Of a stretch of 64,000 nucleotides of DNA, positions 260 to 45,648 are shown in pieces; the first letter of the stretch is position 1, and each line of letters starts with the position of its first letter. The notes under the pieces were generated by a model. The model saw only the letters and a program-made list of their open reading frames with translations. It was not told the origin of the DNA and did no database searches. Source of the stretch: Thraustochytrium sp. TN22 (lineage: Eukaryota; Sar; Bigyra; Thraustochytrida; Thraustochytriidae); NCBI GenBank assembly GCA_013306675.1, contig JABLUY010000027.1, positions 1 to 64,000 of the forward strand, in the 5' to 3' direction. Made by a program: the position numbers and the translations under genes.

Positions 260-2857
260 TCAGGGCTCCTTGGCCTCGGACTCGCCGCTGTGCTTGAAGA
301 GGTACTCGGCGAGGTAGTCGACAGGGTCGTCGGGCTGCGCGCGGCAGGTCTCGATGAGGCCGCGGGAGAGCGTGGGCATGACGTGCTCCATGAGGAAGTT
401 GTGCAGCGGCTCGGCGCGCGCGCGCAAAAGGGCCTCCTCGTGCTCCAGGGCCTGCTTGCGGCTGAGGTCGTTGGCCTTGTGGCGGTCCTCCTCCTCGAGG
501 CGGCGCGTCTGCTCGGCGGTGACGCGGTCCTGGCGGTCGGCCTCCTCGCGCGCGAGGCGGTCGGCCTTGGCCTGGGCCTCCATCTCTGCGCGCTCCTCGG
601 CCGTGGGCCGGTAGTTGTGCGGGCGGCCGCCGCGCTCCACGTAGAGGCGCACGGCGTCGGTGTCGACGCTGGGGCCGGCCTGGGCGGCACCAGCGCCGGC
701 ATCGGCGCCAGCCTCGTCAAGATCCTCCTTGGACTCGGCCCCGCTCTTGGACTCGGCCTCGTCGCGGGCGCGCTGGGCGGCCTCGGCACTGGCCGTGGCC
801 GGGAGGTCGACGCGGATAAGGAGCGACTCGATGCCGCAGTTGCCCTCGAGGAAGCTGAGGGGCGTCTGCGCGAGGTGCTCGGAACTGTGATCGCGGAAGC
901 GCGCCAGCGCCGCCTCGAAGGCGGCCTCGTCGGCGTCGGCGCGCGCCATGGCGAAGGCGCGCAGCGCGTCGTCCGCCGCATCCAGAGCGATGACGCCCGT
1001 CGGCACGATGCGCGGGTCGATGGTGAGCTCCTCGAGGGCGCCAGCGGCGGCGTCGCCGGCGGCGGCCTCGTCATCGTCGCCGGCTGCGGCGCCGACGCCG
1101 GGTGCATCGTCCGCGTCCTCGAAGTCCGGGTCGGCCTCGGCCTCGCCGTCCTCGGCCTCGGCGGCAGCGGCGTCGTCGTCGGCCTCGGGCGCCGGCGTGG
1201 CCGTGGCGGCCATGGTGTAGATGGAGCGAAGCGAAAAGTAGGTCTGGTCGTAGCCATCCAGGACGTAGCCCTGGCTCTGGCAGGCGGGCGAGAGCAGCTT
1301 GGCGCGGATGATGCGCGCGGCCAACTTGTTCGAGAGCCGGCCCTTGGTCTCGATGCAGCGCTCAAACTTCTCCGCGAGCAGCTCGAGCGCCGACTTGCGG
1401 AAGAGCAGGCGGCGCTCCGGGTCGTTCTCCGGGTCGTCGTCCTCCGCGTTCTCGGCGTCGGCGTCGGCGTCGTCCGCCTTGCCCTCGGCCTCAGCGTCCT
1501 TCTCCTCGGCCTCCTTGGCCTCGGCGAGGCGCTGCGCCTTGCGACGCGCCTTTTCCTCGTCGTGGGCCGCGACGCGCGCGTCGCGCGCCGCGCGCAGGCG
1601 CTGCAGGTCGTCGATTATGTCCTGCGTCGCGGATTCCAGCGTCACGAGCGGCAGGCGATAGTCGTCCGCGAGGTCGCGCGCCGCTGCGGACTTGCCGCTG
1701 CAGGGCGGGCCGGTGAGCACGACGCGGAGCGGGCGCAGGTCGCGCGTCGCGCGAAACTCCGCCGCAACGCGCGGCATGTTCTCCACCGGACCCTCCCGCG
1801 AGTGCCACTCCGGGACGAGCTCCTGGACCGTACTCTCCGCCGTGTCAAAGCGCAGCGAGCAGCGCAACATGGACCACGCAGGGTTGGCGAGCAGCAGATC
1901 TCCCGTGTCCTCCGGCGAGGCCACGGCGACCTCGGCCGGGTACTCGCGCCAGCGGCCCTCGCGCTCGCGGCGCGCCTCATCGTCCTCCTCCTCGGGCGGC
2001 AGGCTGTCCTCGAGCAGCGCCAGCTCCGGGTGCGGCTTGACGACCGAAAAGATGGCCGTGACGATCTCCGATACGGTATTGTGCGCCGCGTCAGCCACCA
2101 CGACGTACTGCTGCGCCGGCGCCGCCGTCAGCACCGAGCAGGTGGCGCGCGCCAGATCGCGCACGTGGACCGTGGGCACGACGTTGGAGCAACCATCGTT
2201 GAGCTCCGGCAGGATGGCCTGGCGGCCGAGCCAGGCGTCGCGAAAGAACTCGTGAAATGGGCCCTCCTCCGCGCCGTACAGCAGGCCGGCCGCCAGCACC
2301 GTCGTGGACAGCGACTCGTGCGCCAAAGCCAGCACCTGCGACTCCAGCGTCTTGTGCACCAGATAGGCGGGCGACGGCTTGCGCTGCGTGAAAGACTGCT
2401 CGCCGAAGATGGTCGGCGCCGCGCCGTCCTCCTCATCCTCGCCGTCGTCCGCCTTGCCCTCCTCGGCAGGCAGCGCCACGGTGCGCGGCGTGTTCTCCCA
2501 CGTCAGCAGCGTCGACACCAGCACGACGGCCTTGCTGCCCTGGAAGGGCTGCTTGAGTGCCTTGACCACGGCCGAGGCCTCCATCACGGACTCGTGCGTG
2601 TCCAGCACGATGGCATCGGCGGACCGCGCCAGAGCACAGACCGCGTCCAGGTCCGCGCGCGGCGCGGTCTCCGCGACGCCTTCCACCGGCACGCTGCGCT
2701 CGCGGGCGCCATCGACCGAGCCGACAATCTCCAGCTCTTCCGGCACCTCCTCGCCGCCCTCCGCCAGCTCCGCCAGCTTCGCCGCGCGATCTGCCAGCAG
2801 CAGCTGCTTCACCGCCGTGCCCACATAGCCGTCCACGCCCTCGATGAAGACCCTCAT
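260..2857 (-). CDS. AK7: Adenylate kinase 7 (Rossmann-like + AK + Dpy-30)
   Basis: Adenylate kinase 7 is a flagellar nucleotide kinase that interconverts ATP, AMP and ADP in the axoneme. The predicted protein is 865 aa. The first ~330 residues are an NAD(P)-binding-like Rossmann domain beginning MRVFIEGVDGYVG. A P-loop GPPCSGKSA sits near residue 383, followed by AK-type segments (LDGYDQTY). A long Glu/Arg/Lys-rich helical stretch leads to a C-terminal Dpy-30 helix pair (NFLMEHVMPTLSRGLIE through VDYLAEYLFKH). This domain order is that of AK7; the acidic linkers inside the AK domain make it longer than the human protein. The start is the ATG at the Rossmann strand; the open frame continues upstream but with repetitive, non-conserved sequence. 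It is divergent from a radial spoke gene, which fits shared flagellar expression. I am very confident of the family and less so of AK catalytic competence. Confidence 0.92.
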   Translation of the reverse strand: MRVFIEGVDGYVGTAVKQLLLADRAAKLAELAEGGEEVPEELEIVGSVDGARERSVPVEGVAETAPRADLDAVCALARSADAIVLDTHESVMEASAVVKALKQPFQGSKAVVLVSTLLTWENTPRTVALPAEEGKADDGEDEEDGAAPTIFGEQSFTQRKPSPAYLVHKTLESQVLALAHESLSTTVLAAGLLYGAEEGPFHEFFRDAWLGRQAILPELNDGCSNVVPTVHVRDLARATCSVLTAAPAQQYVVVADAAHNTVSEIVTAIFSVVKPHPELALLEDSLPPEEEDDEARREREGRWREYPAEVAVASPEDTGDLLLANPAWSMLRCSLRFDTAESTVQELVPEWHSREGPVENMPRVAAEFRATRDLRPLRVVLTGPPCSGKSAAARDLADDYRLPLVTLESATQDIIDDLQRLRAARDARVAAHDEEKARRKAQRLAEAKEAEEKDAEAEGKADDADADAENAEDDDPENDPERRLLFRKSALELLAEKFERCIETKGRLSNKLAARIIRAKLLSPACQSQGYVLDGYDQTYFSLRSIYTMAATATPAPEADDDAAAAEAEDGEAEADPDFEDADDAPGVGAAAGDDDEAAAGDAAAGALEELTIDPRIVPTGVIALDAADDALRAFAMARADADEAAFEAALARFRDHSSEHLAQTPLSFLEGNCGIESLLIRVDLPATASAEAAQRARDEAESKSGAESKEDLDEAGADAGAGAAQAGPSVDTDAVRLYVERGGRPHNYRPTAEERAEMEAQAKADRLAREEADRQDRVTAEQTRRLEEEDRHKANDLSRKQALEHEEALLRARAEPLHNFLMEHVMPTLSRGLIETCRAQPDDPVDYLAEYLFKHSGESEAKEP

Positions 2858-3524
2858 GGCGCCCGCGCTCGCTCCCAGTTTGGACCTGGCTCGCTGCCGC
2901 GCCGCGCACGACCAAAGTCGCGCCCCGGACCAGCTCAAGCTTAGCCTGCCAGCGGGCCTCCGCGCCGCGCGGCCGCTCCGCGCCCTCCAGTTCCGGCGCG
3001 CCTTGCCGTGCAGTGCCTTGCTGCCGCCGCCCAAAGTCCTTCTTTCCTTCTCAGCTCCTTCTTCGAGTTCCGTCCGCCAGCCCTCGTTGAAAACTACAGG
3101 AGCAAAGCTGAGAGTAAGGCGAGACGCGATGCACCGCAATGAAATGCGATGCGATACAATGATGCATCGTGCAAAGAGCAAGGTGCGCGCTGCCGCGGCG
3201 CGGGCCGCCACATCGCGCGTTCTCCAGCGATCCGTTGCGCTTAGGCCGCTTGGCTTCCGCACCGAACGCAGGCTGCGCGCGGCGCCGCGGCCGCGCACGC
3301 GGGACCGTTGGGCCGCCGAGGCGCGGCGCGACGACCTTGACTTGGCGAGCGTCAGCTTGAGCCGCTGCAGGCAGGAGCCCGAGCCAGGAGTCGCGCGCGA
3401 GGTCGGTGAGGTGCGCAGCAGTGTAGAGCAGCGCGAGAGGCCAGGCCAGGCTAGGCCAGGCCAAGCCAAGCCAGGCGAGGCGAGGCGAGGCGTGGCGAGG
3501 CGAGGCGAGCGCGCGGCTGGCAGG
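2858..3524. promoter_or_regulatory. Divergent promoter of AK7 and RSPH4/6
   Basis: This 667-base stretch separates two flagellar genes transcribed outward, so it must hold both promoters. It contains an ATG/GCA-rich patch (about 3126-3180) and a pentamer repeat next to the RSPH4/6 start. I see no convincing RFX X-box or TATA box by eye. Confidence 0.55.
3439..3510. repeat. GGCCA/GGCGA pentanucleotide array
   Basis: Tandem GGCCA units change midway into GGCGA units. The array ends 15 bases before the ATG of the radial spoke gene, so it probably lies in the 5' UTR or core promoter. Confidence 0.8.
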
Positions 3525-4856
3525 ATGGCGGACTTCGAGGAGGCCAAGGCCTTCCTGCTCAAGGACCAGGACGGCGCGAACCTCTTCGATCATGTGGCGG
3601 ACGTCCTGCTCAAGGTGATCTCGGAGCGGCCGGAGAACGCGCTCGAGGTCTTCGAGCAGCTGTCTGCCAGCGTCAAGGCCGGCAGGCTCGCCAGCGGCAC
3701 CGCAGACGAGGCCTCGCAGGCGCAGCGTGAGCTCGAGGCGGCGCACAGCAAGCTCGTGTCCAAGCTGTACCGCGACCCCGAGGCGCCGGAGGGCGGCGAC
3801 GAGGACGGCGCGGATGGCGCTCCCGCTGCCGAGCCCGAAGAGCCGCTGCCCGCGGCCCGCGCCGACGTGCTCATCGACCTCGACAAGGAGTGCGCCGCCT
3901 GGCGCGCCGCCGGCATCAACATCCCGCAACACGACCTCTTCAAGCTGCAGCTCTCCTTGGCGCGCCTGGCCGGCGCCGACACCTCCATCGAGACGCTGCA
4001 GCTCTGGGGCAAGCTGCTCGGCCGTCAGGGCGACTACTTCGTGGCCGAGGGCCGCGGCGGCGCCGCGGAGGACGAGGATGAGGACGCCGAGGGCGTCGAG
4101 CCGGCCGAGCCCGAAGCCAACAAGCACACCTACTGGGTCTGCTCGTACCCGGGCGGGCCCTGGACGCGGCTGCCGCCGCTGCGCCCCGGCGCCGTGCTCT
4201 GCGCGCGCCAGATCAAGCGCTTCCTCACCGGCAACCTCGACGCTGATGTGCTCGGGTACCCGGCCTTCCCCGGGCCCGAGCGCGCCTACGTGCGCGCGCT
4301 CATCGCGCTCGTCAACGAGGGCTGCGCCATCGCGCCCAAGGGCTACTTTGCCGTCGCCGAGGACGGGTCCGCCGTCGATGTCGCCGAGGACTTCGCCATG
4401 CCGGCCGCCGCCGACCTGCTTGACCCGGCCGCCTGGGAGGCCTTCGGCCCGGCCTTTAGCTCACTCGGCCGCGTCGCCCCGCTCGAGAGCGAGGACGCCG
4501 AGGGCAACCCGGTATCGCAGCCGGAGGGCTGGGAGCTCCAGTGGGTGCGCGAGGTCGCGCCCGAGTCCTGGACCGCGCGCGCCTACCCGCGAAACCTGCC
4601 AGAACTCAAAAACGCCATGGCCGTGCTGCGCTCCGAGTCCTGGCCTGGCGCCGTCGCCGTCGCCGCGCCCGCCTCTGGTACTTGGTCCAACCTCTACGTC
4701 GGCTACGGCTTCTCGCGCACCGATGCCCTCTACACGCCGCCGATGCCGCCCCCGCTTCAGTCCGAGTTCGCCGCCGCCTCGGCTTTCAAGGAGCAGCCCG
4801 ACGTAACCGAGGACCCCACCCCGCCCGAGGCCGCCGACGACGCCGACGACGCCTAA
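3525..4856 (+). CDS. RSPH4A: Radial spoke head protein 4/6
   Basis: This is a structural protein of the radial spoke head of motile 9+2 flagella. The predicted protein is 443 aa and starts MADFEEAKAFLLK. The N-terminal ~190 residues form the helical RSP4/6 leader. From about residue 203 the diagnostic block appears: YWVCSYPGGPWTRLPPL, then ARQIKRFLTGNLDADVLGYP and FPGPERAYVRALIALV. These align with Chlamydomonas RSP4/RSP6 and human RSPH4A/6A. A late Trp-rich segment (GTWSNLYVGYG) and an acidic Asp/Glu tail are also typical. It is slightly shorter than animal homologues (about 500-700 aa). The ATG chosen follows a repeat array; the frame is open upstream but non-conserved. RSP4 and RSP6 cannot be separated from sequence alone. 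Confidence 0.93.
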   Translation: MADFEEAKAFLLKDQDGANLFDHVADVLLKVISERPENALEVFEQLSASVKAGRLASGTADEASQAQRELEAAHSKLVSKLYRDPEAPEGGDEDGADGAPAAEPEEPLPAARADVLIDLDKECAAWRAAGINIPQHDLFKLQLSLARLAGADTSIETLQLWGKLLGRQGDYFVAEGRGGAAEDEDEDAEGVEPAEPEANKHTYWVCSYPGGPWTRLPPLRPGAVLCARQIKRFLTGNLDADVLGYPAFPGPERAYVRALIALVNEGCAIAPKGYFAVAEDGSAVDVAEDFAMPAAADLLDPAAWEAFGPAFSSLGRVAPLESEDAEGNPVSQPEGWELQWVREVAPESWTARAYPRNLPELKNAMAVLRSESWPGAVAVAAPASGTWSNLYVGYGFSRTDALYTPPMPPPLQSEFAAASAFKEQPDVTEDPTPPEAADDADDA

Positions 4857-5414: not shown

Positions 5415-6443
5415 ATGGACGCTCTGACCGGGCTGGAGCTCGTGGTCGGCCTTGCGCGCGACGTGTCGAGCATGCTGCAGGAAGCGCGCACTTGCAGGCG
5501 GCAGGCGAAGCACCTGAGCGGGCTCATGGACCAACTCGCGACGCGCCTCGCGCCCCTGAGGGACGCGGACGTGGACGTCTCGCAGCTGGAGGCGCAGATG
5601 CGCGACATCCAGGCGCTGCTGCAGCCACACTTCGGGCGATCCCAAGGCATGGCCGCCCGCGCGCTGGCCATCCTCAACGCCCGGCCCGCGCGCCTAGCCC
5701 TGACCAGCGCCGAGCAGGGCCTCCAGACGATCCTGCAGATCTGCCAGGTCGACCTGGCCCTGCAGCGGCCCGCCTCGCTCCCCGCGGAACAGGCGCAGCG
5801 GGAGGACGCCGCCGAGGACAACCTCGCGCTCATCGAGGCGCTCCAACAGCTGTGCGAGAACGGCGATCTAGACCAGCGCCAAGTCACGGAGATCGTGGAG
5901 ATGCTGCAGCGGCAGCCCGGCATCGACGTGGAGGCGCTCCTGGGCGGACGGACATCGACGACGCGCCGCCAAAAGAAGGCGCTGGACAAGCTCACCAACG
6001 ATCTCATCCGCGCACACGAGCACGAGAGCGCGACCCTGCCCAGTAACCGCGTCGTGCTGGACGACCCCGAGGTGATCCTCGGTGAGGGCCGCTTCGGCCA
6101 GGTGGTGCGCGCAACGCTCTTGGGCGAGGGAGGCAGCGAGCTGGTCGTGGCGGTGAAGCGCGTCGCGCCGCACGCGCAGCGCGCCCTGCTGCGCGAGCAA
6201 GCCATGCTCACCAGCGAGGCCGAGCACTGGCTGGGCCTTGACCACCCCAACATTGTCCTCCTCCACGGCACCTGCATCGTCGATGGCCGGTTCGCGCTGA
6301 TCATGGACAAGTGCGACCTCTCCCTGGAAGACCTGCTGGAGGAAAACGAGCTCAACGACGAGCGCCACCAGCAGCTGACGCTCGACGACAAGGAGGCGCT
6401 CCTGCGCGGAATCGCGCGCGGCCTCGCCTACCTCCACGGCAAG

Positions 6444-6476
<33 letters not shown>

Positions 6477-9041
6477 GTGCTGCTGAGCCGCGACCTCGGC
6501 CGCGTCAAGCTCGCGGACTTTGGCCTGGCGCGCCGCACCGTCTCGGACGCCAGCTACGCCGACACCACCTCGAGCGTCGGCACGCCGCTCTACATGGCGC
6601 CCGAGGTCCTCCAGGCGCCCGCTCGCTGGACCACGCGCGCCGACATCTACGCCTTCGGCATGATCATCTGGGAGGTCTATCACGGCCAGGCGCCCTACGT
6701 GGAGTCCGGCGGCGCCGACGAGGACCTCTCCTCGCGCGTGTTGCACGGCGACCGGCCCCACATCGCCGACGACATCGACATCCGCCTCTGGGTTGTGCGC
6801 ATCATCGAGCAGTGCTGGCAGCACGACCCGCAGGCGCGCCCGCGTGCCTCCGAGGTGCTGCAGCGCTTCTTGGACCGCGGCAGCACCCGCCGCTCGACGC
6901 GCGTCATCCGCGGTCTGGTCGCAATGCTCACGCGGAGCCGCGCGAAGCGCGGCAGCCAAGCCGGCCAGGCCGCCGACGCAACCAGCCTCGCCATGCTGCA
7001 GGGCCTCCTCAGCGATCTCGCTGACGGCTCCGGTCATGTGGCGCGCACGCTGCACGCGCTCCGCGACGCGCTCGAGGACGAGTTCGAGAACGGCGACGAG
7101 GTCCAGACCTTCCGCGCCGAAGCGCTCTCACGCGGCGTCGTGGTCGACCTCAAGCGCGTTCTCGAGCGCGAGGCCGACGAGGACATCCTGGCGGGCGCTC
7201 TCTGGACGCTGCGCTACGCGCTCTCCGGCTCGCAAGCAGCCGCCTTCCGTGATGCGGCGCTGCAGGTCTACGGTCTCGATAGGGTCGTCGCGAGCCTGCT
7301 CAGCGCGCACTCCGCATCCGCCAATATCCAGGCCGCAGGCTGCGGCGTGCTGTGGGCATGCAAGGCCGACATGGGCGCGCCGGTCATGGAGGCCCTGTGC
7401 GCCTTTCCCGAGGATGGAGACGTGCAGGAGAACGCCTACGGCGCGCTTCTGACCGCGGAGAGCGGGCTCAGCGGCTGGCGCAAGGCCGGCGGCATTGTCT
7501 TCGCGGCCATGGCCGCACATCCGAGCCGTCTTCACCTGCAGGAAAGTGCATGCGGGCTCCTCGCGAAGCACGCCTCGAGCATGTCCAACTATAGCCATGC
7601 CACACAGCGCACAGCTGCAACTTGCGTTGTTGAGGCAATGCGCCGATGGTCAGCGCTCAGCACGCTCCAAGCGCAGGGCTGTCAGGCGCTCGCCGCCATC
7701 ATCGACTCCGACTCCTGCCGGCGGACTCTGGGACAGGAAGTCGGAGTCGTCGCGGACGTCACGAACGCCATGCGCACGCATCGCAGCCACGTCCAAGTGC
7801 AGGAGGCCGGGTGCCAGGCACTGTGGAAGCTAAGCATTTGGAACGATCGCAACAAAATCATCATTTGCCAGGAGCTTGGCGCTTGCGCAGATATTCAGGC
7901 GGCCATGCAGGCGCACAGAAGCCACGCCGGCGTCCAAGAGGCTGCGTGCTCGGCTCTGTGGAACCTGAGCGCTTCGAACGACCGCAACGGAGACATCATC
8001 TGCCAGGAGCTGGGCGCGTGCGCAGACATCCAGGCGGCCATGCAGGCGCACAGAAGCCACGCCGGCATTCAAAAGGCTGCGTGCACGGCTCTGTTGAACC
8101 TGAGTTTGAATGATCGCAACCAGGTCATCATCTGCCAGGAGCTGGGCGCATGCGCAGACATCAAGGCGGCCATGCAGGCGCACAGAAGCCACGCCGGCAT
8201 TCAAGACGCTGCGTGCGCGGCTCTGTGGAACTTGAGCGCTTTCATCGATCGCAACCAGGTCATAATCTGCCAGGGGCTGGGCGCGTGCGCAGACATCCAG
8301 GCGGCCATGCAGGCGCACAGAATCCACGCCGGCATTCAAGAGGCTGCGTGCTATGCTCTGCGGAACCTGAGTGTGAACGATCGCAACAAAGTCGTCATCT
8401 GCCAGGAGCTGGGCGCGGGCGCAGACATCCAGGCGGCCATGCAGGCGCACAGAAGCCACGCCGGCATTCAAGAGGCTGCGTGCAGGGCTCTGTGGAACCT
8501 GAGCCATTTGAACGATCGCAACCAGGTCGTCATCTGCCAGGAGCTGGGCGCGTGCGCAGACATCCAGGCGGCCATGGAGGCACACAGAAGCCACGCCGGC
8601 GTCCAAGAGGCTGCGTGCACGGCTCTGTGGGCCCTGAGCACTTCGAATGATCGCAACAAAGTCATCATCTGCCAGGAGCTGGGTGCGTGCGCAGACATCC
8701 AGGCGGCCATGCAGGCGCACAGAAGCCACGCCGGCGTCCAAGAGACTGCTTGTGCCGCCCTCGCCAACCTCAGCGTAAACAGTCGCAACAGGGAGATGAT
8801 TGGGCTCGAGCTCGACGCAGGCAAGGACGTTGTGGCGGCGATGCGCGCGCACTATGGGAAAGGGGGTGTGCAGCACCAAGGCTGTCGGGCGCTCGCAGAT
8901 TTGGCAGGCAACACCAGTGTTGCGCGGAGGCTCAACACATGTGGCGCTGCTGAAGCCGTGCGCAGCGCCGAGAGAAGTTTTTCGGACCTTCCCGAGGCCC
9001 AGCGCGCACTGGACAGGCTCGCAGCAGCCAATGACTCATAG
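5415..9041 (+). CDS. MLKL-like helical bundle + TKL protein kinase + ARM repeats
   Basis: This is a predicted Ser/Thr kinase of 1208 aa with an unusual architecture. Residues 1-~150 are all-helical. Features such as EARTCRRQAKHLSGLMDQL and QREDAAEDNLALIEALQQL resemble the four-helix bundle plus brace of MLKL and the HeLo/MCAfunc family; this is my alignment by eye. The kinase domain spans about 216-490 with all catalytic motifs: GEGRFGQV, VAVK, HRDLKPAN (Asp349), DFG (Asp368) and APE. It reads as TKL/RIPK-like and active. The C-terminal ~650 residues are ARM/HEAT-type helices, including seven near-identical 44-45 aa units from residue 810 (NDRN..ICQELGACADIQA). The ATG at 5415 is the first in frame next to conserved sequence. 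The gene converges on a ubiquitin protease only 61 bases away. Kinase and ARM calls are secure; the MLKL-like call is tentative. Confidence 0.85.
7842..8780 (+). repeat. Seven near-identical ARM-repeat units in the kinase gene
   Basis: In-frame tandem units of 132-135 bases each encode one ARM-like helix set. Seven units are almost identical in both protein and DNA, with mostly single-base differences. More diverged ARM units flank them on either side, which points to recent local amplification rather than ancient repeats. Confidence 0.9.
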
Positions 9042-9102: not shown

Positions 9103-10544
9103 TCAGGGTTGGGGCACTGCGAGTTCGCGTCGTTCGTAGAAGAGCATGTAGGCCTGTGCACCGAGCACGGTGGCAAGGTCCACCCTTGCGACGCGTGCGT
9201 CGGAGACGTGCACCCAGGTGTTGGGCGCGAGGCGACGAAAGGCGGTAAAGTGGCCGCCGTCGGCGCTGCCGTGGTGCACGATGACGGCGCAGAGGTCGTA
9301 GGCGCTGGAGGGACCGTGCCGGAAGTCTGGGACTTGGTCGAGACGGGGCGCGCGGTCGCGCGAGACTGAGGCGGCGCCGGCCGGCGGGCGCAGCATGGGG
9401 AAGTTGGCCATGAGTCCGGTGCGCAGCTCGTTCTCGTGGAATGCAAAGGAGGAGAAGTCGCAGGCGCTGGGGAAGGCGACGTGGTGCGTGAGCTTGATGA
9501 TACGGCCCATCATGGGGCTGTAGTGGCGGCGGCCTAGGTGGATGCAGAGCACGGGCGGCATCTGGCCGAGCGATACGCGTCGGAACATGGCGCGGCGAGC
9601 CTTGTTGCAGAGGCCGAAGCACTCGACGCCCTCGACGGTCTCCTGCTTGACGAAGGCGCGCAGCGCGTCCTCGAGCGAGTGCGCCGCGGCGTTGGTATCA
9701 AAAGCCACAAGCGGGAGCAGCAGCACGTGCATGCTGGCGGCGCGCAGCGGGGAGATGGAGCCGCAGGTGGCGCACATCATCTGGCTCATGGTGGTGCCGT
9801 GCAGCGGGTTGCGCGAACGGGCATCACCGGCCCAGGGCGGCGCGCAGGCGGTGCGCAACCCGGCGAGGCCGAGCGAGCGCGCCCGGCGGCGGCGGCGCGT
9901 GCAGCCGCTCTCGGTGTCGACGGCGTCCAGGACGTGATGAAGGAGCTCGTCGGCGTCCTGCTGCTGCTCGCTGAAGCGAAAGGCCGGCGAGAGGCGCAGC
10001 AGGCGCCAGCGCAGGTCCTGGATGCTCATGGCGCGCGGCGCCGCGCCGCCGTCGGCGCGCCGCGGCGCCAGCTGCTCGAGCACGGCGGCCAGGCGCTCCA
10101 CGAGCACGGCGCGCGCCCCGCGCTCTCCGTCCTCGGTGGCGTCCTGCGCGGTGGAGCGCACGTAGCGGACCGCGGCGGGACATGAGGCGAGCGCCTGCAG
10201 CAGCGCGTTGATAAAGCACGAGTTCCCGAGGTTATGCAGGCCCGGCACGGCCCAGGGCCTCGGGTCCGGCTTCGCCAGGAGCCCGTCTGCGCCGAGCGCC
10301 TCGGCCGAGGCGCCGTCCATGCGGAAGAGCGCTCGCGTCGGCGCGCCCAGCAGCGCCTGCACGAGCGTCCACTGCAGCGTTACGGCGTCGGCGCCATGGT
10401 GCGGTGCCTGTGCCTGCCTTCGAGGCCGCGGCGCAGGCGCAGATTGCGGGCTCGGCTGCCGCCGCGGCTGCTGCTGCGGCGGCTGCCGCGACGCTGGCGG
10501 TGGCTTCTCCGCCGCGCCCTGCGCTCGGCCGCCCGCCGGTTGCT

Positions 10545-10576
<32 letters not shown>

Positions 10577-10590
10577 TCGTCGTGGTGCAT
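9103..10590 (-). CDS. Ubiquitin carboxyl-terminal hydrolase (USP family)
   Basis: This is a deubiquitinase of the C19/USP family that removes ubiquitin from proteins. The predicted protein is 495 aa. The Cys box GLHNLGNSCFINALLQAL has the catalytic Cys near residue 125. A QQQDADELLHHVLDAV block follows, and then a CxxC pair (MCATCG). The His box is YDLCAVIVHHGSADGGHF with the catalytic His near residue 447, followed by WVHVSDARV. The N-terminal ~100 residues are Gly/Ala/Pro/Gln low complexity with a Gly run from a GCC repeat. An in-frame ATG at 10707 would add 39 basic, Cys-rich residues; I prefer 10590. The size and compact catalytic core recall small USPs such as USP30, but no transmembrane segment is visible, so the subfamily is open. 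Confidence 0.9.
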
Positions 10591-11481
10591 CCGATCGAGG
10601 CGTGGGCGGGTGTTGGTTCTGCAGCGACACGTACCTCGCCTCGCGGCCTCGGCACGGTCGCGACGTCGCAACAAGCGCAAGACAGCACAAGTGCAATGCT
10701 CGCACATACGCCAAACGCGTGTTCACGCGGCGTCAACGTCGTCAAGGTCTTCCATTTCCTCCTCCTTCGTTGCCCCAAAGACCTCGGCCCTTAGTAGTAG
10801 AGCATCACCATCAAGTCACACATCCTCATGCCGACACCAGCACCGCCACCGCGGCCCTTCACCCGCACAAACTCAATCCAGGTTGATCTTCGACACCTGC
10901 CACGTGCATTGCGTTCTCGAGCACTACCTCCGAGGCCTCGAGCGCCTCTCCCGCACGGCAGCCCGTCCACGTTCGCGACGACACCGAGCCCACCCTCGCC
11001 GTCCCGTCCTCCCTCCTCCGCACCGGCCGCCCCCCTCGCCAGACTCCCTCCGCTCGCCTCTCGCCCCTCTCGCGGTCTCTCCCGGTTCTCCAGGTCGCTC
11101 TCCAGGTGCTCGAGCCCGTCCGTGGCGGCGCTCTGCGCGTCCACGCCGTCGGCCGTGCGCGGTGGTTAGTGTCCGAAACCCGCGGCGCCGGGTCCGGTGC
11201 GGGCGGCGCCTGCTCGCGCCGGCGCGCGCGCGCCACGGGACCGGCCGTCCGAAACGATTCCGGACGCTCGAAATCAAATGCTCCAGCGGCGCCCAAGCAG
11301 CAAGCAGCAACGAACGAATCACGAGGCGCGAGCGCGCGACAAACCAGCAACGCGCGGCGGCGGCGGCGGCGCGCGCGGCGGCGCGCGGCGGCGGCGGCGG
11401 CAGCGGCGGCGCGGCGGCGGCGGCGGCGCGGCGGCGCGAGGGCGGCGCGGCGGCGCGTGCGCGCGCATCCCGTTGGGCCCT

Positions 11482-41883: not shown

Positions 41884-42300
41884 CCTAACTGCCGCGCGGA
41901 TGCAGCCACACCGTGACCTGCCCCTGACGTCGGCGCCCGTGCGGCGAGGGCTCTCCCGCGCTCCGACTCGCGGGTCTTCGGGCGCGGCCGAGTCGGTTTG
42001 CCTTTTGTCATTGCTCGCCGGGTCCGGCGAGGCGAAGGACCCGAACTTGAAGGCCAAGATCGAATTCGGCCGTTGGCGCAACGGCGCCGCGGCCGCTGCG
42101 CGCGCCGCCGTTTCGGCCGCGCCGCGTCTCAGGTTGCCAACTTGATGAGCGCGCAGACAGTCCCGAGTCCGAAGTCCGCTCGCGCGCGGCGCGGCGCGGC
42201 GCGGCGCGGCGCGTGCGAGCGGCGCCTGTGCCGCTCGGGCCCTCGCGGCGCGGCTTCGCGCGGCGGCAGCTCGCGCCGGGGCGAGGGGCGGCTCGCGAGC
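41884..42300. promoter_or_regulatory. Divergent promoter of carboxypeptidase and tandem kinase
   Basis: 417 bases between divergent start codons, with a (GCGGC)n pentamer array at about 42186-42213, close to the kinase start. An AT-richer patch near 42000-42065 may hold the promoter core. No gene is supported. Confidence 0.5.
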
Positions 42301-45300
42301 ATGGGCCTGGAGCAGATGCTGCTCGCGGCGGACCCCGAGGCCGCCCGCGGCGGCGAGGACGCGCTGGCGCTGCGGCGGCGGTCGCTGGAGGCGATCTCGG
42401 GCGGCGGCGTGGCGGCGATCGTGCTGGGCGTGCTGCTCGCTGCGGCGCTAGTTGCCCTCGGGAGGCTCTACATGCGGTACCTGTCGGCGCAGGACGCCTT
42501 CAAGTACGAGGAGGAGGATCTCGCCGCCAAGAGCGCGGACTCGCTCGCGGCGGAGAGTCCGTGGCACGCCCGCGAAAAGGCCAGTGCGGATAGCGGTGAG
42601 CCGGATGAAGACGAGGACGAGGACGAGGAGGACGAGGACGCGCTCGGGAGTCCGTTCGCAGGCGGCTTGAGGCGGCGGCGGCGCGAGCTGGGCGCCGCCA
42701 GGAGCACGGAGGATGACTTCGACGGAGAGGATGAACTTGGGGCGCCCTCGGCGCTCGGTGCGGGCCCGGCTGCTGGTGCGCCACGGTCCGCCAAGCGTGG
42801 CGCGGCCAGCTCGCCGGAGGAGAGCTTCCTCGGCCGGGTCAAAGGCCTGAACGCGGCGTCCGTCTTTGGCATCGACCTGTCGAAGCTGAAGCTGGGGCCG
42901 ACCATTGGCGAGGGCGCGAACGGACGCGTCTTCCGTGCCTCGTACCTGGGCTCCGACGTGGCCGTCAAGGAGATCATGTCGCTGGCGCCCACGGATCACG
43001 TGGAGCAGCACTTCATGACGGAGCTCGAGGCGCTGAGGCGTCTGCGGCACCCGCACGTGGTGGAGCTCTACGGCGCGGCAGTGAGCCGCAGCCTGGCCTC
43101 GTCCAACCGCCTGCGGTACCTTCTCGTGACCGAGCTGGCGCCCTGCAGCCTGCGCGACTTGCTGGACTCCGAGGAGCTCATTACCTTCAAGCAGGCGCTG
43201 CGCATCGCGACGGAGCTCAGCAAGGGCTGCGCCTACATTCACGCCATGAAGGTGGTGCACTTCGACATCAAGCCGGCCAACGTGTTGCTTTCGGACTCAG
43301 GCAAGGTCAAGATCTGCGACCTCGGCGTCTCGCGGCTCGGCAGCAATGCACACCAGTACAAGAACTCCACGGAGGCCGCCGCGGTGCGCGGCACACCCAC
43401 CTACGTGGCGCCCGAGATCATGCGTGGCAAGACCACGCTGCTTTCGTACGGCGTTGACGTGTACAGCTTCTCTATCCTCTTTTGGGAGCTGCTGCACCGG
43501 CGCGCGCCCTTTCCGGCGACCTGGACGCTGGCCGTGCTTTTCAACCGCGTGCTGGATGGTTACCGCCCGGCGATTGGTCCGCTCGTTCCGGCGCGCCTGC
43601 GCCGCCTGCTCATGCAGTGCTGGGACCCGGAGTCGCTGCGCCGGCCCGAGTTTGAGCAGGTGCTGGTGGAGCTTGCCTGGGCCGAGAGCGAGCTGCGCCA
43701 CCCGGAGCATGCTTTTCTATCCACGCACAAGGTCGAAGTCTGGTTTGGCGGCGAGTTCCGCAACGCGCGCATTAGCCGCAACGTTGGCCGCGGCCTCTAC
43801 GAGGTCGTGCTTCACGGCGAGATCGAGGAGCGCACGTTCCCGGCCACGGAGATCGTCCTGGTCGACGGTGGCGGCGGTGTGTCCACGACACTTGCCACCA
43901 TCGAGGACTTTGAGGGGAAGCACGACACGCAGGACGGCTTCGTGTTCCACATTGTCAATGACGAGGCGCCCACGCCGCGGCCGTCCGAGGCCCGTGGCCA
44001 GGGCCGTCACAGCCGTCTGAGCCCGCGCGTGCAGCCGGACCCGCGGTCCGCACCCTCGAGCAGCGACGACGACGACGCGGGCGGCGGCGGGAGCGGGCGC
44101 GGGCGCGGCGGCGGCGGCGGCGGCGCGGGGGGGCGCACGCGGGCCGGCGATTTGGCGCGGCGCCTCTCGCGGCGCTCGCGGCGACGCGGCGACGGCGACA
44201 GCAGCGGCGACGGCCCGCAGTCCACCATCAGCTCGGGCTTTACCACGTCGACGTCCACCAACACACTGACGCCCACGTCGCGCGTGAGCCAGTCGTCTGG
44301 CACGGAGGAGCTGCTCAGCGACGAGGCTACCTGGGGCCACGGCTCCCACTCTGTGGAGATTGAGGGCATCCGCATCGACGAGTACGGCATCATGTCGCCC
44401 TCGGGCGACCTGCTGCCTGGCGGCGCCGATCTGGAGGGCGACTCGCCGCCGCTCACATCCGCGCACCGGAGCAACTTCCGCGCAGACCTCGTCATTCTGA
44501 ACGAGATCGGCCGCGGCGCCTCGGGCGTCGTGCATCGCGCGCTCAAGCTGCGCAGCTTCGAGCTCGTAGCCGTCAAGGCCATCCGCGTCAAGGACACGCT
44601 CAGCCGGTACCAGATCGCCAAGGAGATTCGTGCGCTTGACGCCGTCGTCAAGACGTCAGCGACTGGAGCCTCGGCGCCGACCGCCAACGCCGCCAGGACA
44701 AGGTCGCCGGGCGGCGACTCTGGCGACGGCCTCGAGAACAAGGCCGAGGACGCTGAGGAGGCGTCCTCGCTCACGCAAATGTTCGGCGCGTACTGGGAGC
44801 CGGAGGACGCGTCCGTGCGCATCCTGCTCGAGTACATGGATGGCGGCAGCTGTGATGATATGCTCATCAGCTGGCGGCCGCCATCGGAGCACCTTCTTGC
44901 CGCCATCGCTATCGGTGCGCTGCGCGGCATGCGGCAGCTGCACGCCTCGTACCGGCTGCACCGCGACATCAAGCCGGCCAACATCCTCATCGACCGCCGC
45001 AAGGGCGCCAAGCTTTCTGACTTGGGCCTTGCGCGCGACATGATGGCGCAGGAGGGCGCGCGCGACAGCATCAACGACGCGCTCGCCGAGACCTTTGTGG
45101 GCACCATCTCGTACATGAGCCCAGAGCGCCTGGAAGGCAAGTCGTACAGCTACGCGGCGGACGTCTGGTCGCTGGGACTCACCGTCATCTCGCTTGCGCT
45201 CGGCAAGAGCCCGTTCCGCAACTACAGCTTCTTCCAGCTGCTCGAGTTCTTCCAGACCTCCCCGGTTCCGTCCATCCCGGACATGTACAGTGACGAGCTG

Positions 45301-45648
45301 CGCGACTTTCTGGACCAGTGCACGCAAAAGTCTCCCCAGGACCGCGCCACGACGGAGCAGCTCCTGGAGCATCGCTGGATCGCCGCGTACACGCGCGGCG
45401 ACCGTCCCGACCCGATGGGCTTCTTGCGCCAATACATTAACGACGCCTCGGAGGGCTCCCGTTACAAGCGCGACGACCTCAACTTTGTCTCTTCCCGCGT
45501 CAACGAGCACCTGCGAGATATTCTCGCGGACCAGGCTGGCGAGAGCCCTGCCCAGGTTGTGGTCCCGCTCTCCAAGGTGCGCCGGCTTGCCACCCAGCTC
45601 GGCGTGCCGACGCGCCATGTTATCAAGAGCTTCAAGGCGCGCAAGTGA
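42301..45648 (+). CDS. Membrane-anchored tandem kinase: TKL-like + MAP2K-like
   Basis: The predicted protein is 1115 aa. One transmembrane helix lies near residues 37-60 (GVAAIVLGVLLAAALVALG). An acidic linker leads to kinase 1 (about 197-460), with GEGANGRVF, VAVKEI, HFDIKPANVLL, DLG and APE. It is TKL-like, with HFD for HRD. A small SH3/Tudor-like segment follows near 475-520 (KVEVWFGGEFRNARI). A disordered Ser/Gly/Arg linker precedes kinase 2 (about 729-1030), with GRGASGVVH, VAVKAI, HRDIKPANILI, DLG, FVGTISYMSPERLEG and YSYAADVWSLGL. These are the wording of MAP kinase kinases (STE7/MKK). The activation loop keeps Ser and Thr at plausible MKK phosphosites. The C-terminal ~85 residues are helical. 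Both kinases look active. The combination suggests a receptor-proximal TKL module acting on an attached MAP2K, which is inference. Confidence 0.9.
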   Translation: MGLEQMLLAADPEAARGGEDALALRRRSLEAISGGGVAAIVLGVLLAAALVALGRLYMRYLSAQDAFKYEEEDLAAKSADSLAAESPWHAREKASADSGEPDEDEDEDEEDEDALGSPFAGGLRRRRRELGAARSTEDDFDGEDELGAPSALGAGPAAGAPRSAKRGAASSPEESFLGRVKGLNAASVFGIDLSKLKLGPTIGEGANGRVFRASYLGSDVAVKEIMSLAPTDHVEQHFMTELEALRRLRHPHVVELYGAAVSRSLASSNRLRYLLVTELAPCSLRDLLDSEELITFKQALRIATELSKGCAYIHAMKVVHFDIKPANVLLSDSGKVKICDLGVSRLGSNAHQYKNSTEAAAVRGTPTYVAPEIMRGKTTLLSYGVDVYSFSILFWELLHRRAPFPATWTLAVLFNRVLDGYRPAIGPLVPARLRRLLMQCWDPESLRRPEFEQVLVELAWAESELRHPEHAFLSTHKVEVWFGGEFRNARISRNVGRGLYEVVLHGEIEERTFPATEIVLVDGGGGVSTTLATIEDFEGKHDTQDGFVFHIVNDEAPTPRPSEARGQGRHSRLSPRVQPDPRSAPSSSDDDDAGGGGSGRGRGGGGGGAGGRTRAGDLARRLSRRSRRRGDGDSSGDGPQSTISSGFTTSTSTNTLTPTSRVSQSSGTEELLSDEATWGHGSHSVEIEGIRIDEYGIMSPSGDLLPGGADLEGDSPPLTSAHRSNFRADLVILNEIGRGASGVVHRALKLRSFELVAVKAIRVKDTLSRYQIAKEIRALDAVVKTSATGASAPTANAARTRSPGGDSGDGLENKAEDAEEASSLTQMFGAYWEPEDASVRILLEYMDGGSCDDMLISWRPPSEHLLAAIAIGALRGMRQLHASYRLHRDIKPANILIDRRKGAKLSDLGLARDMMAQEGARDSINDALAETFVGTISYMSPERLEGKSYSYAADVWSLGLTVISLALGKSPFRNYSFFQLLEFFQTSPVPSIPDMYSDELRDFLDQCTQKSPQDRATTEQLLEHRWIAAYTRGDRPDPMGFLRQYINDASEGSRYKRDDLNFVSSRVNEHLRDILADQAGESPAQVVVPLSKVRRLATQLGVPTRHVIKSFKARK

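Follow-up and report, generated by a model that had tools for sequence, protein, structure and literature searches.

Within the window analyzed here, a 64,000-nucleotide stretch from Thraustochytrium sp. TN22 (contig C199; the genome has 453 contigs totaling 37.9 Mb), a single frame on the forward strand (5415..9041; 1208 amino acids plus stop, no intron required) joins a candidate MLKL-like four-helix bundle, a kinase with complete catalytic residues, and a long array of armadillo (ARM) repeats. The paralogues of this gene include kinases, pseudokinases, and a kinase-less form, and the differences among its ARM units are concentrated on the predicted ligand face of the array. Taken together, the gene could encode an all-in-one, NLR-like receptor that lacks a nucleotide-binding switch and carries an MLKL-type effector, a quite possible reading that we hold tentatively. 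The first-pass annotation of the window, made from its letters alone, had described one frame in which helices at the N-terminus precede a catalytically complete kinase and a long ARM array, and this description was confirmed, with the helices coming from a low-confidence model. The paralogue family with its pseudokinases and the variable concave ARM face go beyond what was claimed there.

The candidate N-terminal bundle and its probable relation to MLKL

To relate the N-terminus to known folds, the five closest N-termini, from the window protein and the loci C415, C248, C300, and C18, were combined into a profile (A5), which was searched against 177,635 distinct PDB sequences. Six MLKL chains headed the 15 matches (E values of 2.8e-4 to 2.3e-3), and the next match was a coil of TRAF2 (E = 0.041). 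The best alignment was colinear, pairing residues 7-143 with MLKL residues 6-149 with short gaps only, and it ran through the bundle into the start of the brace. The exact reversed A5 profile (A6) gave no PDB match at E ≤ 10, and a seven-row reversed profile (A3, two rows inexact) gave four, the best at E = 0.05. In a shuffle control with A5, MLKL scored 22.3 bits and reversed MLKL -0.8; the MLKL stretch was shuffled 20,000 times, and among the 19,132 versions that were scored, the highest value was 14.7 bits, below that of MLKL itself. These comparisons argue for a likely, if unproven, homology of the N-terminal bundle to MLKL.

The candidate bundle occupies residues 1-118 (5415..5768), as delimited by the A5 search, the helix model, and the paralogue alignment, and is followed by a linker and brace-like helices (residues 119-205; 5769..6029), where a conserved acidic segment was paired with the beginning of the MLKL brace. 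A single-sequence model predicts, with low confidence, that the first ~210 residues are mostly helical, with helices at 3-49, 55-73, 79-88, 92-115, 124-149, 154-165, and 184-206. We assign bundle helices 1 to 4 to residues ~3-24, ~27-49, 55-73, and 92-115, with a short helix at 79-88; the break between helices 1 and 2 is our inference, as the model gives a single helix at 3-49. MLKL and HeLo-like domains apparently share a short helix between the third and fourth (PMC9815663), and the predicted helix order, including this short helix, would fit that description at low confidence. Both segments that had been singled out earlier, a Cys/Arg-rich stretch and an acidic brace-like stretch, are present (CRRQAKHL at residues 27-34 and from Asp131, respectively), and Cys27, Ala31, Asp131, Leu139, and Leu143 are invariant across seven aligned family members.

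Several results weigh against the homology to MLKL: (i) searched with the single sequence, the Pfam model MLKL_N (PF22215) scored 8.0 bits (E = 2.6), its cut-off being 27, no Pfam family reached its curated cut-off in residues 1-210, and HeLo, HeLo-like, RPW8, and Rx_N were not listed by Pfam at E ≤ 10 in seven members, in a scan that mostly filtered out weak matches. Genome-wide, the sole MLKL_N match at E ≤ 10 was a frame that we read by eye as Tim44, and no family member was found. (ii) The signal depends on the rows and length of the profile. A seven-sequence profile gave MLKL at E = 0.0084, and a nine-row profile including the N-termini of C331c and C331d lost the MLKL match, with 22 of 19,357 scored shuffles equaling or beating MLKL. 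When the profile was cut to the bundle without the brace, MLKL fell to E = 0.22 (third row, second molecule, behind a TRAF2 coil), so that part of the signal sits in the acidic brace start; this bundle-only profile reached the plant disease-resistance chain At5g04720, which we take to be an RPW8-type NLR, at E = 1.0 only. (iii) An hhalign comparison of A5 with a single MLKL sequence gave p = 2.9e-4 and a probability of just 41%. (iv) The MLKL chains in the A5 result look like one protein, presumably human, and the entry 4btf, which we take to be mouse MLKL, is absent from the match list. (v) The single-sequence structure model (predicted local distance difference test score [pLDDT] of 48, predicted template modeling score [pTM] of 0.28) is too poor for assigning a fold, and a PDB fold search with it, to which no weight was given, contained no MLKL among the best 50 of 83 matches (best E = 0.46). 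(vi) Outside the source genome, no relatives of the protein were found in the viral contigs or prokaryote genomes searched.

Alternatively, an unrelated helical domain, a coiled coil or a dimerization module, could form the N-terminus of an ordinary tyrosine-kinase-like signaling kinase with its ARM repeats as a scaffold. Helical profiles attract coils, and the loss of MLKL, or the rise of the TRAF2 coil above it, in wider or shorter profiles is in line with this, as are the hhalign probability and the lack of a Pfam family at cut-off in the N-terminus. Such an explanation has to contend with the colinear A5 match to MLKL and its clean reversed and shuffled controls, and it leaves the variable ARM ligand face unexplained. 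We consider it somewhat unlikely. The MLKL-like bundle with brace proposed in the first-pass annotation is partly supported, through the A5 profile, while the MLKL_N, HeLo, and RPW8 models of Pfam were below cut-off or unlisted and hhalign was weak.

The kinase and the paralogue family

The kinase domain (residues 222-484; 6078..6866) matched PF07714 at 1.9e-49 and retains Lys248, the HRD Asp349, Asn354, the DFG Asp368, and the APE motif at 395, its assignment being drawn also from the paralogue alignment and the PDB search. An NCBIfam scan of the protein returned kinase models only, over the kinase and none close to its cut-off, and phage matches (best 10 of 32 records) covered the kinase part only. 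The Pfam scan listed no NACHT, NB-ARC, or TIR domain. Against a closer tie to necroptosis kinases, RIPK1 and PDGFR scored nearly equally in the PDB (1.1e-29 and 6.3e-29), and there is therefore no specific RIPK link.

When the genome was searched with the N-terminus, 16 matches were obtained at E ≤ 10, including the window itself. Clear matches other than the window were C300 (50% identity, 5.5e-50), C415 (44%, 2.4e-33), C248 (45%, 2.9e-30), C18 (35%, 6.5e-19), C418 (26%, 2.9e-7), and C453 (28%, 1.6e-4), as well as part of C331b (4.6e-4). Since the N-terminus recurs at 35-50% identity at the first four of these loci, it is not a chance sequence. Membership was then scored with A5 and with A1, a profile of seven N-termini, against 11 proteins, the E values being those of a small set and most profile rows being among the targets. 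With A5, C453 reached 43 bits, C418 36, and C331b, which is in neither profile, 34. C331d and C331c, 49% identical to each other, scored 18.6 and 14.4 bits with A5 and -3.0 and 8.8 bits with A1, a weak bundle signal; a search with C331d recovered the window at E = 0.0041. For C331a, a bundle was unsupported (-0.6 bits). By these scores, the family comprises eight supported members, two weak ones, and one doubtful one.

In an alignment covering eight kinase regions, catalytic residues are intact in the window protein, C415, C300, and C248 and lost in C18 (HRE), C453 (VVVQ, HSN), C331a (HRN, GGF), and C331b (VAVS, HGQ). Pfam found no kinase in C418, C331c, or the examined part of C331d. Judged from these motifs, the eight supported members are four predicted active kinases, three pseudokinases, and one kinase-less form. 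This coexistence of kinase and pseudokinase paralogues would parallel the pairing of the RIPK3 kinase with the MLKL pseudokinase. A bundle fragment at C376:11114-11434 (35% identity to C300, 1.8e-8), with an internal stop and lying in a 131-amino-acid frame, is perhaps a decayed copy.

The intact kinase also bears on how the bundle would be used. The bundle may be a true MLKL/HeLo relative that serves as an oligomerization or membrane-tethering switch for kinase signaling rather than as a pore-former or killer; the kinase could then be the output, and the pseudokinase paralogues could be scaffolds. The MLKL/HeLo members described in animals, plants, and fungi are, in contrast, proteins that act on membranes in cell death or defense (PMC12881547, PMC10951266), and we regard a switch of this kind as improbable.

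Several of these genes are clustered at C331:87000-110000, where two pseudokinase-ARM forms lie with two ARM-TIR forms that have weak bundle matches, and where an extra ARM frame at 107-109 kb has a bundle match of E = 0.31. In C331c, the order is weak bundle match, ARM, TIR, ARM, TIR (TIR_2, 4.9e-19), and the C331d frame has one TIR (6.4e-12). The genome as a whole is TIR rich and NLR poor, with 123 TIR_2 matches and only 2 NB-ARC matches at E ≤ 0.001, so that an ARM-TIR fusion is less surprising here than elsewhere. Given the weak bundle in C331c and C331d, a link of TIR to the bundle family is a hint only. SARM1 has the layout ARM-SAM-TIR; the two C331 frames likewise join ARM to TIR, whereas the window protein has no TIR and C331c has no SAM in the Pfam scan.

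Variation within the ARM array

The C-terminal part of the protein begins with a linker and degenerate ARM-like repeats (residues 491-815; 6885..7859; mostly weak unit matches, the best PF23744 stretch starting at residue 685), continues with seven near-identical ARM units of 44-45 amino acids (residues 816-1127; 7860..8795), and closes with a diverged ARM-like part (residues 1128-1208; 8796..9041; unit match at 1129-1165, 26 bits). The tandem array was detected at 7803-8749 and cut into the seven units. Pfam matches were to PF00514 (1e-15) and PF23744 (2.2e-21), and PDB matches were to APC (2.4e-6) and LRRK2 (9.5e-4); with the LRRK2 ARM domain (PF23744 in Pfam) and APC, the best ARM matches, the repeat type alone is shared. 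Over 312 amino acids, the seven units have a mean pairwise identity of 84% (minimum, 76%) and 87% at the DNA level, counted over the first 38 columns of each.

The remaining differences fall mainly in unit columns 28, 31, 34, 35, and 38, whose mean entropy was 1.46 compared with 0.18 in the rest (7 units, permutation p = 1.2e-4). The same five columns stood out in C415 (2.24 versus 0.49; 17 units, p = 4e-5) and in C248 (0.98 versus 0.20; 9 units, p = 2.8e-4), and shifting the set by -1 to -6 lowered the entropy each time in all three arrays. We take these columns to be positions 30, 33, 36, 37, and 40 in the usual ARM numbering, on the concave ligand face, and the conserved Asn of column 35 aligns to the LWNLSA motif of APC. 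By this numbering and alignment, variation is gathered on the predicted ARM ligand face. In a held-out test, in which the top five columns of one array were tested in another, p values were 0.008 (window to C415), 0.011 (C415 to window), 9e-5 (C415 to C248), and 0.005 (C248 to C415). The window and C415 make a fairly independent pair because their units are just 46% identical, compared with 75% between C248 and C415. In the window units, the ratio of nonsynonymous to synonymous substitution rates (dN/dS), computed without recombination in the model, was 1.43 at the variable columns and 0.15 elsewhere.

Other observations weaken the case for a diversified recognition face. The entropy columns were chosen after the window and C415 arrays had been viewed, and diverged end units (window 771 and 1129; C248 559 and 999; C415 1527) as well as the whole C300 array, which is diverged at 38% identity, were left out. 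The two weakest of the six held-out tests gave p = 0.06 (window to C248) and 0.08 (C248 to window). In addition, dN/dS at variable columns and elsewhere was 0.62 and 0.43 in C415 and 0.85 and 1.04 in C248, and with no excess above 1 in these two arrays, general positive selection is not indicated.

The near-identity of the units could also reflect nothing more than a scaffold that recently expanded in tandem and underwent gene conversion, variation remaining where the fold tolerates it and no selection for recognition being involved. Besides the dN/dS values of C415 and C248, the presence of large arrays of similar units at other loci (C141, C422, and C34) and the finding that, for 29 of the 31 units, the closest counterpart lies within the same array favor such an explanation. 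It is less easily squared with the position of the variation on the predicted ligand face, with the drop in entropy upon column shifts in three arrays, and with the contrast in dN/dS within the window array, and we consider it unlikely.

ARM units of this kind are widespread in the genome: the scoring of 150 out of 216 candidates gave at least 148 matches at E ≤ 1e-5. At C422:96400-105500, a 2959-amino-acid frame holds many alike ARM units and a middle part without identification; its N-terminus has a leucine-rich repeat match below cut-off and no bundle match, and the array type is therefore common to different N-termini. At C141:1-8411, a very long run of alike ARM units extends over several frames (the longest of 1761 amino acids), many stretches of which score identically against the ARM query.

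Proposed mechanism, comparison with known systems, and genomic setting

If the gene does encode a receptor of the kind outlined at the start, the C-terminal ARM array would be its sensor, as suggested by the variability of its predicted ligand face, with repeat turnover keeping the units alike while the ligand face diversifies. The kinase would be the switch, a role suggested by its intact catalytic residues and the make-up of the family: ligand binding may alter the kinase, either through dimerization and autophosphorylation or through phosphorylation of pseudokinase paralogues. MLKL is inhibited by its brace (PMC8433767), and by analogy with MLKL, the change in the kinase might detach the brace from the N-terminal MLKL-type bundle, after which the freed bundles would oligomerize at a membrane, either damaging it or using it to signal. 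The existence of a ligand, this order of activation, the action at membranes, including the membrane-permeabilizing role put forward in the first-pass annotation, and a role in immunity or allorecognition are inferred only. Extended to the paralogues, the same scheme would describe an NLR-free receptor family of a protist, in which a hypervariable ARM sensor acts through kinase, pseudokinase, or TIR forms on an MLKL-type membrane executioner, and this broader proposal is doubtful.

Like animal MLKL, the protein has the order bundle, brace, and kinase fold, with the A5 match running from the MLKL bundle into the brace, and pseudokinase forms exist as paralogues in this genome. It differs in that MLKL of animals and Arabidopsis is a pseudokinase, whereas the window kinase is catalytically complete and followed by a long ARM array; its bundle homology is only moderately supported. 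An active kinase on such a bundle is already known, as wheat Pm13, a defense protein, combines an MLKL_NTD bundle with a kinase that has conserved catalytic residues and is predicted to be active (PMC10951266), and according to a review, some fungal HELL domains occur in kinase or pseudokinase proteins (PMC12881547). Pm13 and the plant MLKLs consist of a bundle and a C-terminal kinase, whereas the window protein, from another lineage, continues into the ARM array. Therefore, of the different layout claimed in the first-pass annotation, novelty is confined to the ARM part: no ARM-HeLo/MLKL fusion and no protist ARM recognition repeats were found among the literature matches listed (titles and beginnings of abstracts), and "ARM" is absent from the main text of PMC4986451 and PMC9815663.

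Fungal NLRs with HeLo-type N-termini share an N-terminal four-helix-bundle effector with the window protein (PMC9815663, PMC12881547), and those with conserved WD, ANK, or TPR repeats share near-identical C-terminal repeats with variable ligand-face sites (PMC4986451). The window protein differs from them in having no nucleotide-binding oligomerization domain, a kinase in the middle place, and ARM as its repeat. Dyrka et al. reported that repeats with >85% identity over at least 100 amino acids are generally rare, at 0.4% in plants, 0.8% in animals, and 1.2% in dikarya, and are overrepresented among fungal NLRs; the sites under selection lie on the concave side in TPR units and, one exception aside, also in ANK units (PMC4986451). 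At 84%, obtained by a method other than that of PMC4986451, the window units are borderline with respect to this >85% threshold of highly conserved repeats. In the NWD family of Podospora, concerted evolution was described together with selection at four interaction-surface codons (PMC1805685). The window array bears marks resembling those of the Podospora NWD and fungal NLR repeats, at the border of the identity threshold.

Regarding the gene itself, the start at 5415 is favored since in five paralogues a Met occupies the corresponding position (MDAI, MDAL, MDPI, MAAL, and MDDA) and the frames upstream of it look dissimilar among the paralogues, as judged by eye. Its neighbors are a radial-spoke-head protein gene on the forward strand (2844-4856), which marks the organism as a eukaryote with at least one motile-cilia gene, and a ubiquitin carboxyl-terminal hydrolase gene on the reverse strand (9103-10707). 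A marker model for photosynthesis gave no match in the genome, a result of little weight, as the model gave none in any of the controls either. Elsewhere in the window, a 1243-amino-acid frame at 41917-45645 has two kinase domains, and the remaining families listed there are also kinase-like.

Beyond the original claim, the most valuable outcome is a kinase/pseudokinase bundle family in which several members carry variable ARM arrays of a recognition type. If the proposed reading is true, a single protist protein would unite a diversified sensor with a kinase switch and an effector of the MLKL type, and on the broader proposal, a necroptosis-like kinase/pseudokinase module would be older or more widespread than thought, reaching outside animals, plants, and fungi. 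The paralogue set of this one genome, with active kinase, pseudokinase, and perhaps TIR forms, would then serve for asking how necroptosis-like circuits arose. ARM repeats would likewise join the diversified repeats of immune recognition as a new class, and the window protein would offer a naturally occurring ARM array in which a recognition code could be read straight from the variable positions.

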